Below, piece by piece: positions 4,077 to 24,933 of a stretch of 43,908 bases of DNA (positions are counted from its first letter, which is position 1; each line of letters begins with the position of its first letter). The stretch is from Candidatus Symbiothrix sp. (GTDB lineage: Bacteria > Bacteroidota > Bacteroidia > Bacteroidales > Azobacteroidaceae). A program made the translations under genes and the position numbers. Under the pieces are notes generated by a model that did not search any database, was not told the origin of the DNA, and saw only the letters and a list, made by a program, of their open reading frames with translations. The stretch spans positions 1 through 43,908 of the forward strand of contig JAISKT010000253.1 of assembly GCA_031261295.1 (NCBI GenBank), given 5' to 3'.

Positions 4077-5768
4077 ATGAAAATGAATAGCAAAAAAGTG
4101 CTGGGTTTGGCAATAGCTGTCTTCTTCTCTGTTACGGGAGTATTTGCCGGCAGCAATGAAAAAGGAATTGATCTTTACAGGGCTGAATTATATGAGGCCG
4201 CTAAGTATTTCTTTCTCCAACAACGCAATCAAACGCCTCAGGAACAAGCTGAAAATCAGTATTATTTAGGACAAACGTACTATCAACTTCAAAAACCGGA
4301 TTCGGCTGCTTATTATTATGCAAAAGCCATTGAAACGGCTCCCGAATATCCTTTTGGTTATATCGGCGAAGGTGAATTGACTTTGAAAAAAGGCGATACA
4401 AAAGGTGCGGATGCTTTGTTCAAAAAAGCGATCGGTTTTGCCAAAAAAGACGCTTCGGTACAAACTACGATAGCCGAAGTGTATGCGAATGCCGGGTTGT
4501 ATCCGCAAGCGGAAGAAGCCTTGGAGAAAGCGCAAAAAGTAAATAAGAAATATTCCGGTATCTATTTGGTTAAAGGGGATATCGCTTTGAAAACCGGGAA
4601 CCGCGACCAGGCTTACGGATGGTACGACCAAGCTATTTATTTCGATAAAAATGATAAAGCGTCCTATTTGAAATTGGCGCGCGGTTACAAGGATAACAAC
4701 GAGACCGTAGCGTTGGATTATTTGGATAAATTGGTGGCTATTGATCCGGATTATATTCCGGCTTATGCGTTAATCGGCGACATCAACCGTGATAACGGGA
4801 TGTACCTTCAAGCTTTAAAAGCGTACGAAAAATTCATTTCCATACCGGGAGTGCCTGTGCTTCAACATGAAAGATATGCTCAATTGTTGTATTTTACCGA
4901 TCAGTATGAAAAATCGTTGCAACAGATTGATTATGTATTACAACAAGATCCTGCAAATCCGGTCATGCACCGTATCCAGGCTTATGACAATTTCAAATTG
5001 GACAATTCCGCTTTGGCTCTGCAACAATTGGGCCAATTCCTGCAAGACAATCCGGCTGATAAACATATTTATTTGGATTATACCACTTATGGACGCCTCT
5101 TGTTGAAAGAAAAACAATCGGCAGCCGCTGTGGATGCTTTTCAAAAAGCCGCTGCATTGGATCCTACAAAATCGGAAGTTTATAAAGAACTGGCCACTGC
5201 TTATGAAAAGGCAAATAATTATCCGGAAGCCGTCAAACAATATGATAAATATTTTGAAGTGGAACAAACGCCGGTGGTATTTGATTATTTCTATTATGGA
5301 CAAAATAATTATTCGGCCGCTTCCAAATATATTGATCCGGCCTATTTAGCAACGGTTACCAGCCCGGAACAAAAACAATTGGATAATGAAGCTTTCCAAG
5401 GTTTTATTAATAAAGGGGATGGCGCTTTCTCAGAAGTGATCAGCCGTTCGCCCGACTCTTATTTAGGCTATATTTGGAGAGCGCACCTGCACGCCTTGGT
5501 TGATGCTAAATCGCAAGAAGTGAAAGGCGCTGCCATGCAAGGAGACGCTAAACCGTATTATGAAAAAGCGTTGGAAGTCATGGTAAACAATAATGCAGAC
5601 GGCAAAAGAAACAATGATATTTTGGATGCTTACCGTTATTTGGGATCATATTATTTGTTATTGGACGATAAAGCCAATGCAGGTGACTATTACAAGAAAA
5701 TCTTGGAAATAGATCCCGAAAATACAGATGCAAAAACAGTATTGACAACCCTGAAAATTAAATATTAA
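4077..5768 (+). CDS. exported tetratricopeptide-repeat protein
   Basis: This is a 563-residue protein with a cleavable signal peptide (about 1-25, ending VTGVFAGS) followed by TPR units over almost the whole length. Clear TPR signatures include YYLGQTYYQLQKPDSAAYYY, AAVDAFQKAAALDPTKSEVY and ANAGDYYKKILEIDPENTDA. It is probably periplasmic, or attached to the envelope as a scaffold. It starts 21 bp after the PstS-like gene and closes the ExbD-TonB operon, an arrangement I know from Bacteroidales, so a role in TonB-complex assembly or envelope function is plausible but not shown. Its stop codon abuts the heptamer repeat element at 5769. Confidence 0.88.
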   Translation: MKMNSKKVLGLAIAVFFSVTGVFAGSNEKGIDLYRAELYEAAKYFFLQQRNQTPQEQAENQYYLGQTYYQLQKPDSAAYYYAKAIETAPEYPFGYIGEGELTLKKGDTKGADALFKKAIGFAKKDASVQTTIAEVYANAGLYPQAEEALEKAQKVNKKYSGIYLVKGDIALKTGNRDQAYGWYDQAIYFDKNDKASYLKLARGYKDNNETVALDYLDKLVAIDPDYIPAYALIGDINRDNGMYLQALKAYEKFISIPGVPVLQHERYAQLLYFTDQYEKSLQQIDYVLQQDPANPVMHRIQAYDNFKLDNSALALQQLGQFLQDNPADKHIYLDYTTYGRLLLKEKQSAAAVDAFQKAAALDPTKSEVYKELATAYEKANNYPEAVKQYDKYFEVEQTPVVFDYFYYGQNNYSAASKYIDPAYLATVTSPEQKQLDNEAFQGFINKGDGAFSEVISRSPDSYLGYIWRAHLHALVDAKSQEVKGAAMQGDAKPYYEKALEVMVNNNADGKRNNDILDAYRYLGSYYLLLDDKANAGDYYKKILEIDPENTDAKTVLTTLKIKY

Positions 5769-5856
5769 TTATGAGTTATGAGTTATGAGTTATGAATTAT
5801 TGTTATCAGCGTCAGCCAATTCATAACTCATAACTCATAATTCATAACTCATAATT
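5769..5856. repeat. inverted heptamer-array element with GCGTCAGCCAA core (copy 1)
   Basis: The left arm has four 7-bp units (TTATGAG three times, then TTATGAA) at 5769-5796. The core, TGTTATCAGCGTCAGCCAA, is at 5801-5819. The right arm has five complementary units (TTCATAA/CTCATAA) at 5820-5854. The arms can pair into a long AT-rich hairpin. The element fills the gap between the convergent TPR gene and folB, and the folB stop codon (5835-5837) lies inside the right arm. A second element with the same plan and core is at 24384-24486. Confidence 0.9.
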
Positions 5857-6194
5857 ACAACGGCTGTTTCTTTGAGGTCTCCACCGAAGGGTGGATTTTT
5901 TTTTGCCAACCGGATTTCCAGGTTTTCGATTTGAGGGAAAACCTCTTGGATGTGCCGGATAATTCTGCCGGCTACGTGTTCAATTAAATAAGACGGAATA
6001 GCCATCTCCTGTTTTATTATTTCGTAAACAGAAGCATAATTGATGGTATCCTTCAAATTGTCGGTAAGCATCGCTTGTTTGAAATCAAAATAGATTTTCA
6101 AATCTACCGTATAAGCATTTCCGACTTTCCGTTCCTGTTCCATCACTCCATGATACGCATGGAAAATCATCTCTTTTAGTTCCAAATATTGCAT
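5835..6194 (-). CDS. folB: dihydroneopterin aldolase
   Basis: FolB converts 7,8-dihydroneopterin to 6-hydroxymethyl-dihydropterin and glycolaldehyde in folate synthesis, as a cytoplasmic oligomer. The 119-residue protein has the family pattern: LKEMIFHAYHGVMEQERKVG at the N-terminus (with HAYHGV and the E-E-R segment), NYASVYEIIKQEM, LIEHVAGRII and RLAKKNPPFGGDLKETAVVI (K-P-x-A/F region near the active-site Lys). I start at the ATG at 6194; a TTG seven codons upstream is less likely. The last residues (MSYEL) and the stop are encoded by the right arm of the heptamer element. It has its own minus-strand promoter at about 6213-6245, overlapping the bactofilin promoter. Confidence 0.92.
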   Translation of the reverse strand: MQYLELKEMIFHAYHGVMEQERKVGNAYTVDLKIYFDFKQAMLTDNLKDTINYASVYEIIKQEMAIPSYLIEHVAGRIIRHIQEVFPQIENLEIRLAKKNPPFGGDLKETAVVIMSYEL

Positions 6195-6212
6195 AATAAA
6201 AATTTTAATAGA

Positions 6213-6245
6213 CAAAAATACAATTTACTTTGCTTTTTTTACAAA
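6213..6245 (-). promoter_or_regulatory. folB promoter, Bacteroidota type
   Basis: On the minus strand TATTTTTG (CAAAAATA at 6213-6220) matches the -7 consensus TAnnTTTG. TTTG (CAAA at 6242-6245) lies 21 nt upstream. The predicted start is about 10 nt before the folB ATG at 6194. Confidence 0.6.
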
Positions 6246-8596: not shown

Positions 8597-9064
8597 ATGT
8601 TGAAAGAAATCTTGTCTGTATCCGGTAAACCCGGACTTTTCAAATTGATTTCCAAGGGAAAGAATATGTTTATTGCAGAGTCTTTAATTGATCGTAAAAG
8701 AATACCTGTTTATATGCGGGATAAAGTGGTGTCATTAGGCGACATATCCATATATACAACCGAAGAAGAAGTCCCTTTGGCGGTAGTCCTCAATAATATA
8801 AAGGAAAAAGAAAACGGGCAGGCGATTGCTTTTGATAAAACCATCAAGCCGGAAGAATTGAAAGCGTACTTTGAAACGGTTCTTCCCGATTTTGATAAGG
8901 AACGGGTATATCCTTCCGACATTAAAAAACTAATGAATTGGTACAATCTGCTTGTACAAGAAGGATTAACGGACTTTAGTGTAGAAAATGAGGAGAATGA
9001 AAAAAATGAAGACAATGAAAATAATGAACTAAATGAAAATAATGAAGGGACTGAAGAAAAATAA
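8597..9064 (+). CDS. DUF5606-type protein of unknown function with acidic repeat tail
   Basis: The 155-residue protein has a conserved Bacteroidota N-terminal part (LKEILSVSGKPGLFKLISKG, about 2-21, then MFIAESLIDRKR and YTTEEEVPLAVVL) that I match to DUF5606. Its function is unknown. A central segment (IKPEELKAYFETVLPDFDKE) is helical. From about residue 128 the protein becomes a run of Glu-x-Asn triplets encoded by a 9-bp tandem repeat (8992-9057), a likely disordered acidic tail. No signal peptide or membrane helix is visible, so it is probably cytoplasmic. Confidence 0.8.
   Translation: MLKEILSVSGKPGLFKLISKGKNMFIAESLIDRKRIPVYMRDKVVSLGDISIYTTEEEVPLAVVLNNIKEKENGQAIAFDKTIKPEELKAYFETVLPDFDKERVYPSDIKKLMNWYNLLVQEGLTDFSVENEENEKNEDNENNELNENNEGTEEK
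8992..9057 (+). repeat. 9-bp coding tandem repeat (Glu-x-Asn)
   Basis: At least six degenerate units of the form GAANNNAAT follow one another (encoding EEN, EKN, EDN, ENN, ELN, ENN and then EGT). Unit length is a multiple of three, so copy-number change would keep the frame. Confidence 0.75.
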
Positions 9065-9109
9065 ATTTTTTCATTTCCTTCCTTCTTTCATTTTTTAATT
9101 TTTACAATT

Positions 9110-16670: not shown

Positions 16671-16698
16671 TACTTCCTAATCATTCTTGATTTTAAGT

Positions 16699-19164
16699 AT
16701 GAAACAATCTATTCTTGATATTGCCCGGGTAATTGATGCGCAACCGTCCTCTTGGCAGGATGTGGATATTCAGATATTGTTGACGGACAGCCGTTCTTTG
16801 TCGGAACCGGCTGTGACTCTGTTCTTTGCTTTGTGTACCGAACACAACGACGGGCACCGTTATATCCTTGATTTGTACGAAAAAGGCGTACGCAATTTTG
16901 TCGTTCAACACGATTTTACTGGTCAAGACCGGATTCCCGAAGCCAATTGCCTTTGGGTAAAAGATACGCTGGGGGCTTTGCAGGAACTGGCGGCATCGCA
17001 TCGCAAACAATTTGCTATTCCCATCATCGGGATTACCGGAAGTAATGGCAAAACCATTGTGAAAGAATGGCTTTACCAATTGCTTCACGATACTTTTTCC
17101 ATTGTCCGTTCGCCCCGGAGTTACAATTCCCAAACGGGCGTTCCGCTTTCCGTCTGGCAGTTGAATGAACAAACCCAATTAGGAATTTTCGAAGCGGGTA
17201 TTTCTTTACCCAAAGAAATGGAACGGCTGGAATCCATTATACTGCCTACGGTTGGCATTTTTACTACTATTGGCGAAGCTCATCAGGAAAATTTCTTTTC
17301 ACAGGAAGAAAAATGTTTGGAAAAACTCACTTTATTTGAATCGGCAGAGAAAATTATCTACAACGAAGACCAAATGCTGGTGAAATACTGCATGGAAAAG
17401 AAAGGTTTTTTGAATAAAACATTCTCCTGGTCAACGAAAAACGAAGAGGCTCCGCTTTTCATATCCAAAATAGAAAAAGAAATCGACCATACGGTTATTA
17501 GTGGAAAGTGGAAAATGGAAAGTGGAAAATGGAAAATTCCTTTCACCGATGATGCTTCGATTGAGGATGCCATTCATTGTCTGGCGCTTATCCTTTATTT
17601 GGCTCCCGATTTGACGGATTTGTCCATGCGGTTTGAAAAATTAGACCCTGTGGCCATGCGGTTGGATGTAAGCAAGGGTGTCAATGGAAATATTCTTATC
17701 AACGATACATACAATTCGGATATCAATTCTTTGTCGATTGCGCTGGATTTTATGGCGCGCCGTTCGGTGGATAACCAGTTGAAGCGGGTTTTGATACTTT
17801 CCGATATCCTCCAGTCGGGAATGGTTCCGGCGGCTTTTTACCGTAAAGTAGCGGAACTGGTACATCAAAAGCAAGTGCAGCATATTGTTGGAATCGGCCC
17901 CAATCTGATGTCTCATTCCAATCTTTTCAGTATGGATAAGGATTTTTATCCTACAACGGAAAGTTTCTTAGATTCAGGTATTTGGCGAAAATTGAAAGAT
18001 TCTATCATCCTGATTAAAGGTTCCCGGAAATCACGGTTTGAACGGATTTCCGAACAATTGGAGGAAAAAGTTCACCAAACCGTTTTGGAAGTTAATTTGG
18101 ATGCGGTGATTTACAACCTTAAATATTTTCGTTCAAAATTAAAGTCAAGTACCAAAGTCATTTGTATGGTAAAAGCCTTTGGCTACGGAGTCGGTTCATA
18201 CGAGTTGGCCAAAACCTTGCAGGAACGCGGCGCCGATTATCTTGCGGTGGCTTTGGCTGACGAAGGAGCCGAATTGCGGCGCGAAGGAATTACGATGCCT
18301 ATCATGGTGATGAATCCGGAAGAACATGCTTTCAATACTTTATTTGAATACAATCTGGAACCGGAAATTTACAATTTGAATATGCTGGATGCCATTATTC
18401 GCGAGACCGAACGCCGCGGGATTCTCCGTTATCCGATTCATATTAAATTGGATACGGGAATGCATCGTTTGGGTTTTGATGCACGGGATATTCCGGTAGT
18501 GGCCGAAAAATTGAATGTACAAACCGGCGTGGTGGTCAAATCGGTCTTTTCCCATTTGGCCGGAAGCGATTCGCCGTTGTTGGATGATTATACGCAAACG
18601 CAAATTGAGCTATTTACCCAAACTTCCAATCAATTGGAAAAATTATTGGCTTATCCGGTGATGCGTCATTTGTTAAATTCGGCCGGAATCGAACGTTTTC
18701 CACAAGCCCAATTTGACATGGTTCGCTTGGGAATCGGCTTGTATGGCATTTCAGTTGTGGATGAAAAGGTGTTGAAACCGGTAGCTTCCCTCAAAACAAG
18801 GATATTGCAAATCCGGGAAGTCAAAAAAGGCGAAACGGTCGGATACAGCCGCAAAGGAATCGTGACGCGGGATTCCCAAATTGCCTGCCTGCCTATCGGT
18901 TATGCCGACGGATTGGACCGCCGCTTGGGAAACGGCAACGGAAAAGCGCTCATCAACGGCGTTTTATGCCCGACAACCGGTACTATTTGCATGGACATTT
19001 GCATGGTCGATATTACGGATGCCAAAGCGGAAGAAGGAGACGAAGCCATCATCTTTGGAGAACAAATCACTATCAGTGAATTAGCGGATCAATTACAAAC
19101 CATTCCTTATGAAATACTGACGTCTATTTCGCCGCGCGTAAAACGGATTTATTATAAAGAATAA
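16699..19164 (+). CDS. bifunctional MurF (UDP-MurNAc-tripeptide:D-Ala-D-Ala ligase) / alanine racemase
   Basis: The 821-residue fusion joins two peptidoglycan-precursor activities. The first part (about 1-455) is a Mur ligase with the ATP-binding loop GITGSNGKTIVKEW (Lys118) and later NDTYNSDINSL and KGSRKSRFE. The second part (about 460-821) is a fold-III alanine racemase with the pyridoxal-phosphate Lys492 in CMVKAFGYGVGSYEL, HIKLDTGMHRLGF, and the catalytic Tyr in ETVGYSRKG. The racemase makes D-Ala that the ligase uses as D-Ala-D-Ala. This fusion is known in Bacteroidetes. I use ATG 16699 rather than the upstream TTG. A heptamer repeat (17501-17535) is embedded in the MurF part at residues 268-279. 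Confidence 0.95.
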   Translation: MKQSILDIARVIDAQPSSWQDVDIQILLTDSRSLSEPAVTLFFALCTEHNDGHRYILDLYEKGVRNFVVQHDFTGQDRIPEANCLWVKDTLGALQELAASHRKQFAIPIIGITGSNGKTIVKEWLYQLLHDTFSIVRSPRSYNSQTGVPLSVWQLNEQTQLGIFEAGISLPKEMERLESIILPTVGIFTTIGEAHQENFFSQEEKCLEKLTLFESAEKIIYNEDQMLVKYCMEKKGFLNKTFSWSTKNEEAPLFISKIEKEIDHTVISGKWKMESGKWKIPFTDDASIEDAIHCLALILYLAPDLTDLSMRFEKLDPVAMRLDVSKGVNGNILINDTYNSDINSLSIALDFMARRSVDNQLKRVLILSDILQSGMVPAAFYRKVAELVHQKQVQHIVGIGPNLMSHSNLFSMDKDFYPTTESFLDSGIWRKLKDSIILIKGSRKSRFERISEQLEEKVHQTVLEVNLDAVIYNLKYFRSKLKSSTKVICMVKAFGYGVGSYELAKTLQERGADYLAVALADEGAELRREGITMPIMVMNPEEHAFNTLFEYNLEPEIYNLNMLDAIIRETERRGILRYPIHIKLDTGMHRLGFDARDIPVVAEKLNVQTGVVVKSVFSHLAGSDSPLLDDYTQTQIELFTQTSNQLEKLLAYPVMRHLLNSAGIERFPQAQFDMVRLGIGLYGISVVDEKVLKPVASLKTRILQIREVKKGETVGYSRKGIVTRDSQIACLPIGYADGLDRRLGNGNGKALINGVLCPTTGTICMDICMVDITDAKAEEGDEAIIFGEQITISELADQLQTIPYEILTSISPRVKRIYYKE
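17501..17535 (+). repeat. in-frame heptamer array inside murF
   Basis: Five 7-bp units in a row: GTGGAAA, GTGGAAA, ATGGAAA, GTGGAAA, ATGGAAA. They encode SGKWKMESGKWK within the MurF part. Unit length equals that of the intergenic arrays at 5769 and 24384. Confidence 0.85.
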
Positions 19165-23915: not shown

Positions 23916-24380
23916 ATGAAGTCAAAAATTTATTTATTCGGCTTGGTAGTTGTTCTTTTGTTTTCATTGAGTGCATGTAAATCTAAACAAAGTGCATATA
24001 AGCAAGTGTATGAAGCGGCACAATCCAGATCAATTGCAGAAGACAGAACGGTTCCGGTGGAAAAAACAAAACCCGCCACTACGAATACCGCCTCCGGTAA
24101 TTTTCAAAGAGAAAAACTGACGTCGGTCGATGGAAACGGTATTCAACGGTATAGCGTAGTCATCGGCAGTTTCCTCAACCAGACAAATGCCAAATCGTTG
24201 AAAGATCGGATGCAACGCGAAGGCTATAGCCCCGTATTGGCTCAGAACGAAAGAGGAATGTACCGGGTTATCGTCGCTACTTTCAATGACCGTTCTCAAG
24301 CGGTTGCCGAAAGAGAAGAACTCAAAGAAAAATACGCTCCGGACTTTTCAGACGCCTGGCTTCTCGAACAAGACTATTGA
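23916..24380 (+). CDS. SPOR-domain lipoprotein
   Basis: The 154-residue protein has a lipoprotein signal peptide (lipobox Cys21, FSLSACKSKQ), a Thr/Lys-rich spacer (about 40-75) and a C-terminal SPOR domain (about 78-150: QRYSVVIGSFLNQTNAKSLK, then GYSPVLAQNERGMYRVIVAT). SPOR domains bind peptidoglycan with denuded glycan strands, often at division sites. A role in septal or envelope maintenance is therefore likely. The stop is 3 bp before the second heptamer element. Convergent to the HsdR-N gene. Confidence 0.92.
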   Translation: MKSKIYLFGLVVVLLFSLSACKSKQSAYKQVYEAAQSRSIAEDRTVPVEKTKPATTNTASGNFQREKLTSVDGNGIQRYSVVIGSFLNQTNAKSLKDRMQREGYSPVLAQNERGMYRVIVATFNDRSQAVAEREELKEKYAPDFSDAWLLEQDY

Positions 24381-24383
24381 GAG

Positions 24384-24486
24384 CTAAAAACTAAGAACTA
24401 AAAACTAAAAGTTGCGCGAAGCGCAGATAACAGGCGTCAGCCAACTTTTAGTTTTTAGTTTTTAGTTCTTAGTTCTTAGTTCTTAG
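24384..24486. repeat. inverted heptamer-array element with GCGTCAGCCAA core (copy 2)
   Basis: Four left units (CTAAAAA, CTAAGAA, CTAAAAA, CTAAAAG) span 24384-24411. The core at 24412-24444 includes a small hairpin TGCGC-GAA-GCGCA, then GATAACAGGCGTCAGCCAA. Six right units (CTTTTAG, TTTTTAG twice, TTCTTAG three times) span 24445-24486. As in copy 1, it fills the gap between convergent genes. The stop codon of the minus-strand gene (24469-24471) lies inside the right arm. Confidence 0.9.
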
Positions 24487-24933
24487 TTCATCATAAGGGG
24501 GAATATCTTTTAGGAAGGTGTATTCTCCTTTTTCTTTGTCTATATGGCAACAAAAATGCTGTAAGCCATTGGAAACGATGAGCCAGGGTACTTGCAGGCT
24601 CATGTTGTACCGGGCTATCTGGTCAAAAATAGTTTGATTAATTGCAATGACCGGCGCTTTATACTCAATAATCATTTGCGCTTGTAAATGCTTGTCGTAT
24701 AGGACTGTATCGCAACGACGGTTCACATTTCCCAATTCGATAGAAACTTCATTGGCCAGTAAACCTTCCGGATAACCCTTATATACAATGAGATAATGAA
24801 TGAAATGCTGGCGCACGAATTCTTCGGGAGTCAGGCGTACATATTGTTTGCGTAAACGGTCGAAAACATAGTCTTTTTCCCCCTGTTTTCGAATATGTAG
24901 GTCAGCCGATGGAAGATTTAAGCCGGACATCAT
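24469..24933 (-). CDS. solo type I restriction HsdR N-terminal domain protein
   Basis: The 154-residue protein corresponds only to the nuclease-type N-terminal domain of HsdR-like proteins: RLTPEEFVRQHFIHYLIVYK, ANEVSIELGNVNRRCDTVLY and MIIEYKAPVIAINQTIFDQI, with the D...EYK motif of PD-(D/E)XK nucleases. No helicase part, HsdM or HsdS is present, so it is not a restriction system. A solo copy beside holA is a pattern I recall from Bacteroidales, and its role is unknown. The last residues (ELRTKN) come from the heptamer array. Two adjacent ATGs (24933, 24930) are possible starts. Confidence 0.87.
   Translation of the reverse strand: MMSGLNLPSADLHIRKQGEKDYVFDRLRKQYVRLTPEEFVRQHFIHYLIVYKGYPEGLLANEVSIELGNVNRRCDTVLYDKHLQAQMIIEYKAPVIAINQTIFDQIARYNMSLQVPWLIVSNGLQHFCCHIDKEKGEYTFLKDIPPYDELRTKN

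Follow-up and report, generated by a model that had tools for sequence, protein, structure and literature searches.

Hairpin dimers of tipped heptamer arrays form a dispersed repeat family at gene junctions of a Candidatus Symbiothrix genome

Related repeat systems

Intergenic direct repeats of the heptamer TAACTGA were described by MacGregor in 2015 as 169 direct sets and one inverted set, and that source already notes that such arrays, read one way, have a stop in every frame (PMC4679880). The element considered here shares this feature and resembles the TAACTGA arrays in consisting of tandem 7-nt units that are intergenic and lie near start codons or overlap gene ends, and in a patchy spread, which for TAACTGA includes five Bacteroidetes, with shorter repeat-free gaps in some relatives. 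It differs in its units (RAACTAA / GARTTAT) and in their arrangement as inverted pairs rather than in a single direction; as described, TAACTGA arrays have neither GC-rich tips nor dispersed hairpin dimers of recurrent build (PMC4679880).

In its build the element is closer to REPs. Like the REP dimers of the GTAG and CGTC families, as described, it occurs in high copy as inverted dimers at both convergent and same-direction junctions, near 3' ends, and sometimes supplies the stop codon (PMC3733652). Each REP there is a short palindromic unit marked at one end by a tetranucleotide tag, whereas each half of the present element is an array plus a tip, and its same-direction copies also lie close to the downstream start. 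With REPINs, as described, it shares an inverted-half doublet that makes one long hairpin, about 100 copies, and a presumed non-autonomous nature, but its halves are tandem arrays and no associated transposase locus was found (PMC3116915). The element is an inverted, high-copy, extragenic hairpin doublet with neither a tagged-palindrome unit nor flanking by a RAYT, and because these two REP features fail it was not filed as a REP dimer. Inverted arms give it the terminal inverted repeats of a MITE.

Porphyromonas gingivalis, a member of the Bacteroidales, carries the BrickBuilt MITE. BrickBuilt is likewise dispersed and intergenic, with tandem repeats and inverted ends, but consists of 23-nt units between small inverted ends in 19 copies that lie 49-591 nt from coding sequences (PMC4596501). 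The closest kinds are REP dimers and REPINs in build and placement and TAACTGA arrays in unit. Our literature searches found no description of this combination of features. What is added beyond the known three-frame stops is the two-way hairpin, the tips, a tight two-ended fit to genes, a case of overlap splitting and the pattern of substitutions within the unit.

Anatomy and copy number

The window, by which we mean the whole 43,908-nt stretch of DNA analyzed, is contig 150 of a 388-contig, 4.15-Mb genome (completeness, 87.75; contamination, 5.33). The initial annotation had placed in it two copies of an element with inverted 7-bp arrays around a conserved core, and both were recovered (Table 1), with strong predicted single-strand RNA folds (copy 1, z = -11.6; copy 2, z = -10.2; 0 of 200 shuffles as good). 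No structured RNA of Rfam 15 matched within the window at gathering score. The two copies have in common only the right-hand 11-mer GCGTCAGCCAA; the left half of the copy 2 loop, AGTTGCGCGAAGCGC, is not present in copy 1. Matches of relatives to FolB mostly finish at residue 121-124 of 126 and those to HSDR_N at residue 148-152 of 154, and since these stop short, the last residues of the two ORFs here are arm-encoded. Elsewhere in the window, AATGAAA/AATGAAGAG-type repeats at 8983-9062 terminate an ORF (8597-9064), opposite an inverted TTTCATTTCC-type tract at ~9065-9100, an arrangement that repeats the plan of the element with another unit and no tip. A stop-codon-free heptamer array (TGGAAAG/TGGAAAA) lies at 17502-17537 within the long ORF 16687-19164.

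Table 1. Positions of the two element copies and their neighboring ORFs in the window
Feature	Position	Strand	Description
Copy 1 left arm	5769..5800	+	TTATGAG, ~4.6 units (register GAGTTAT)
Copy 1 tip H2	5809..5819	-	TTGGCTGACGC on minus, GCGTCAGCCAA on plus
Copy 1 right arm	5821..5854	-	Inverted units, ~4.9
TPR-repeat protein ORF	4077..5768	+	Stop codon immediately adjoins copy 1 left arm
Dihydroneopterin aldolase (FolB) ORF	5835..6215	-	Copy 1 right arm encodes last residues and stop
Copy 2 left arm	24380..24410 (also placed 24384-24410)	+	Units CTAAAAA/CTAAGAA
Copy 2 tip H1	24410..24423	+	AGTTGCGCGAAGCG
Copy 2 tip H2	24434..24444	-	GCGTCAGCCAA on plus
Copy 2 right arm	24445..24489 (units also given from 24448)	-	Inverted units, ~6
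SPOR-domain ORF	23916..24380	+	Ends at copy 2 left arm
HSDR_N_2-domain ORF	24469..24933	-	Copy 2 right arm encodes last residues and stop

The motif GCGTCAGCCAA occurs 97 times in the genome of the window, compared with 2 for the reversed-pattern control, and a degenerate tip-plus-arm pattern occurs 95 times, again with 2 for its control. In a rule-based scan, 95 of the 97 copies had a repeat arm on the right side and 86 had two arms of one class, so the proposed search for motif copies flanked by inverted arrays returned an abundance of them rather than none, or cores bare of arrays. The element is dispersed, as the initial annotation had anticipated: about 100 related copies are scattered through this single genome, and they share a short motif that hardly varies and have arms of several unrelated types. 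Each of 33 other genomes of the genus has 0-4 copies of GCGTCAGCCAA, and GCGTCAGCCAACTTTTAG, present 64 times here, has 0 in the 392 other genomes drawn from the order. A longer form was found 10 times in 8 contig stretches of four MAGs labeled Prevotellaceae (two), Dysgonamonadaceae and Tannerella; isolate codes like theirs presumably denote termite-gut samples. Tip H1 was counted 74 times in the own genome, 40 in G016 (another species), 5 in G014, 4 in G012 and 0-2 in the rest, and the array pattern CTAARAACTAARAACTAA was present in 14 of 38 genomes of the genus (263 in the own genome, 0 in its control). In 443,908 bases of the genome, 32 inverted repeats were detected, with arms of period 7 in 9, of period 9 in 4 and of neither in 19; a block-shuffled control covering 10 of the 21 stretches gave 0. 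A phage or plasmid carrier was rejected, since GCGTCAGCCAACTTTTAG had no exact match in viral contigs and copy 2 had no plasmid match by BLAST, a test that the low-complexity filter may weaken.

The family is built as a hairpin dimer, in which two inward-pointing arrays, mostly of heptamers with the consensus RARYTAW, are terminated at their inner ends by two short GC-rich tips, H2 (TTGGCTGACGC) and H1 (AGTTGCGCGAAGCG). The element is ~95-105 bp long, with a median of 94 bp among the 64 heptamer-armed copies for which both edges were defined. Some dimers have other combinations of tips, which rules out a central fixed core: GCGTCAGCCAA is a single tip (H2) seen as its reverse complement and not the core of a loop. 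Class A copies carry H1 (AGTTRCGCRAAGCG) on one arm and H2 on the other, but H2 occurs on both arms in L052 and, less exactly, in L082, and H1 on both arms in 6 of 20 loci fetched from G016 (strict pattern). Tip variants GTGTCAACCAAC, GCGTAAGCCAAC and GCGTCAGCTAAC also occur. The 11-mer is therefore not strictly fixed, and its constancy among the 97 copies is only apparent because the exact search selected it. The tips themselves could form tiny stems only (GCGC-RAA-GCGC and GGC-TGAC-GCC), the second of which, by eye, is not kept in classes B and C.

Arms were assigned by rule to class A (CTAARAA units), class B (TTATGAR units) or class C (CCCCTAAATCCCCTAAAGGGGACTT-type arms), of which A and B together make one broad heptamer, RARYTAW. 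The left/right combinations among the 97 copies were A/A in 56, C/C in 22, B/B in 8 and none/A in 8, with one each of C/AATGAAA (L014), none/none (L033, which resembles a decayed A) and A/none (L038, though by eye its right arm is A-like). The unit patterns of the two arms of a class A copy agreed at 0.451 versus 0.446 when permuted (53 copies), which gives no support to arm copying within one element.

Several loci depart from this plan. Among 20 class C copies that passed a filter, 14 have hundreds of bases of flank in common with L026, and the class C element at these 15 loci sits in a repeated segment of several hundred bases; L010, L011, L028, L042 and L049 have only ~80-100 bases in common with L026. 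L025, L038 and L070 have larger loops that contain the palindrome AACTTTCCAGGTTTT..AAAACCTGGAAAGTT, which looks like a nested member of another repeat family. A ACAATAATGCAACGGCTCCGCCGTAAGC-like sequence replaces the left arm in L019, L021, L022, L065 and L085 and resembles, by eye, repeats near the Y1 transposase locus L098. Inverted heptamer arrays of GGTGCAC without a tip were seen at L237 (16747-16822), and L114 of G014 has inverted CTAAAAA arrays with a different loop directly 5' of a tRNA-like sequence.

Placement at gene junctions

Placement was assessed with the 64 heptamer-armed copies having both edges defined, 59 of which had both neighboring ORFs within 400 nt, the ORFs being mechanical calls. 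Heptamer arrays start at stop codons and finish a few bases 5' of start codons. On 75 stop sides, the ORF stop lay within -2..+4 nt of the array edge in 36, and in 29 the ORF ran into the array and closed within its first 21 nt, 26 of these ORFs finishing precisely with unit 1, 2 or 3; these ends cluster at -21, -14 and -7, corresponding to a stop from unit 3, 2 or 1. On 43 start sides, the ATG was 1-14 nt off in 34, with medians of 7 and 7.5 nt beyond the array. Copies outside classes A and B, mostly with class C arms, were loosely placed (median ORF gap, 425; n = 16), although many class C copies belong to the one repeated segment. The outermost unit was GAGTTAA on 19 of 40 start sides and 3 of 70 stop sides, and the wider class RAGTTAW was found on 25 of 40 versus 12 of 70 (P = 2e-6). 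The outermost unit is locally set and varies with the kind of codon, stop or start, on its side of the element. Tip orientation was independent of gene direction (35/35 and 20/20), and the GAGTTAA end unit marked start sides whatever the tip orientation. TTAACTC was found 0 times in the 25 nt 5' of 228 element-free ORF starts.

Both copies in the window lie between convergent ORFs, as originally annotated for copy 1, but genome-wide the commonest location is between same-direction genes (41 of 59 copies, 22 and 19), followed by convergent (17) and divergent (1) junctions. Against a baseline of 307 gene pairs that includes element-bearing junctions (same-direction, 234; convergent, 38; divergent, 35), convergent junctions were enriched (P = 0.0025) and divergent ones depleted (P = 0.017). 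No more than 15 nt of other spacer was left in 28 of 42 cases at same-direction junctions and in 14 of 18 at convergent ones; uniform insertion into intergenic DNA, which predicts ~2%, was rejected. Length-blind choice of junction was not rejected for same-direction copies (P = 0.42) and was mildly rejected for convergent ones (P = 0.02).

The convergent enrichment and divergent depletion, together with the strong predicted folds, would suit a selected functional RNA hairpin, such as a two-way transcription terminator or an mRNA 3' protector, and in some relatives the same genes are followed by ordinary short hairpins, as judged by eye and, for example, at L208-L210. Most copies, however, lie between same-direction genes, including the thyA-folA pair that overlaps in relatives, and A.C mismatches are as frequent as G.U pairs (53 versus 49 in 53 copies), so that RNA pairing is not visibly maintained and a constraint on it finds no support. 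We regard a selected RNA role as quite improbable.

The thyA and folA genes overlap at GTATGA in 14 of 29 relatives fetched; in the own genome they do not overlap, 105 extra nucleotides lie between them and both ORFs are open. In this one empty-site comparison, the element has separated the two genes and left both ORFs open. Counted from the state with a 2-nt overlap, the added length is 7 in G014 (one heptamer, ATAATAT), 21 in G016 and 105 in the own genome (both array-like), all multiples of 7, and the array-free separations of G031, G018 and G015 are 31, 39 and 41 nt longer, none a multiple of 7. By eye, the two genes are separated in G002, and no thyA tail was seen in nine relatives. Downstream of hsdR_N, among 29 relatives, long period-7 inverted arms as in copy 2 were found in G003 (GAGTGAA/GAGTTAA), G022 (AAAGGTG) and G016 (GAATTAT with an H1-like tip); the inverted repeats at L222, L223 (G018) and L225 are shorter or of other kinds, and most remaining relatives have little. 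On the far side, a SPOR gene end is recognizable in G003 and G022, and the G016 neighbor looks different (by eye). The proposal that arms are locally chosen within the genome failed, because two genome-wide heptamer families (CTAARAA and TTATGAR) stand beside the motif and left and right arms agree no better than permuted ones; what does vary is the outermost unit and, between species, the heptamer at the same junction.

These junctions also bear on an origin without transposition, in which arrays at gene ends lengthen in place through slippage in 7-nt steps, template switching produces the second arm and gene conversion spreads the tips from array to array. Such growth would fit the additions at thyA-folA in multiples of 7 and the arms of other heptamers downstream of hsdR_N, as well as single arrays without a tip or partner arm at several of the loci examined in the genus, a class A tip with class B arms (once, L084), mixed arms (L144, L149 and L151) and lag-7 self-similarity in intergenic DNA after removal of tip-bearing gaps (z = 6.8 in the own genome, 4.7 in G025 and 4.0 in G017). 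The lag-7 signal is weak, however (2.0 in G003 and 0.4 in G005), with the shortest lags scoring equal or higher, and across 400 kb from G003, G025, G017 and G005 none of the 16 inverted repeats had period-7 arms at the threshold used. Moreover, there is no sign of within-copy arm copying, arm length is mostly 4 units (50 of 70 stop sides, 21 of 40 start sides), and the same heptamer families and tips at ~95 loci require dispersal. We consider growth in place an unlikely account of the family.

Heptamer stops and spread

In 314 units of 53 class A copies, from which 4 units with at least 3 mismatches had been dropped, 142 bases were non-consensus, counts that are non-independent since the copies share ancestry. 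These fell at R1 (106), Y4 (26, all T) and R3 (10), with 0 at A2 and 0 in TAA. The Y4 changes were solely C to T, and a stop (TAG/TAA) on the opposite strand stays. Inward three-frame stops come from the TAA of each unit, and Y4 as C or T preserves TAR on the opposite strand; since 7 is not divisible by 3, three units close every frame. The pattern favors stop-keeping and is suggestive, not proof: A2 is unchanged though outside any stop codon, which stop-keeping alone does not account for, and R1 stands out as a hot spot.

No mobilizing enzyme was found, and no target-site duplication was detected (mean longest direct repeat, 3.64 versus 3.59 shuffled; 64 copies, with power limited by boundary uncertainty). 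The genome has 7 Y1_Tnp (PF01797) matches, and a true REPIN family mobilized by one of these RAYT-like transposases would share with the element the doublet hairpin build, the copy number and the placement near 3' ends attributed to REPs (PMC3116915, PMC3733652). A tip or two-unit run was found, however, in 0 of the 7 Y1 loci (2.3-3.3 kb fetched; the genome is ~88% complete and one locus may be missing), and no GTAG or CGTC tag was identified at the palindrome foot. We consider a Y1-mobilized REPIN very improbable, and a RAYT-flanking repeat was rejected because none of the Y1 loci carries a tip or arms. Membership in the CGTC REPs was likewise discarded, as the CGTC within GCGTCAGCC is not at the palindrome foot as in described CGTC REPs, and an integron attC was set aside, the motif being at odds with GTTRRRY. 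One Y1 locus (L099) contains a doubled GTTTTTA stretch.

Our preferred reading, to which we give an even chance, is that the element is a REP/REPIN-like, non-autonomous, non-coding interspersed repeat that spreads as a unit and whose arms act as three-frame translation stops. Two heptamer arrays head to head, each ended by a tip, would fold into one long hairpin, and the element would spread as a unit, probably as this hairpin, by an enzyme. Each arm would halt any reading frame entering from outside, because a stop-bearing 7-nt unit shifts the frame by one with each copy, and the three-frame stops would let the element settle right where a gene finishes, and even within an overlap of start and stop codons, at little cost. 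Such a stop-cassette role would account both for the unit length of seven and for the inverted arms, one cassette facing each way. Against a mobile unit count the lack of target duplication, the result at the Y1 loci, the P value for same-direction junctions and the context-dependent end units; insertion of a fixed unit alone does not explain the start-side GAGTTAA ends. A bolder proposal, which we put forward tentatively and with some doubt, is that the seven-base unit is itself an adaptation of mobile or self-propagating intergenic DNA, in which stops close all three frames from each side, copies enter overlaps and pry ORFs apart, and the same architecture is renewed at corresponding junctions from heptamers that differ between species.

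The thyA-folA junction offers a testable empty site. The start-side TTAACTC unit suggests that the repeats also become the region in which translation of the downstream gene starts. If the preferred reading is right, it would provide a concrete reason for the seven-base units in the intergenic repeats of some lineages and a route by which repeats may spread in compact genomes, lengthening gene junctions.
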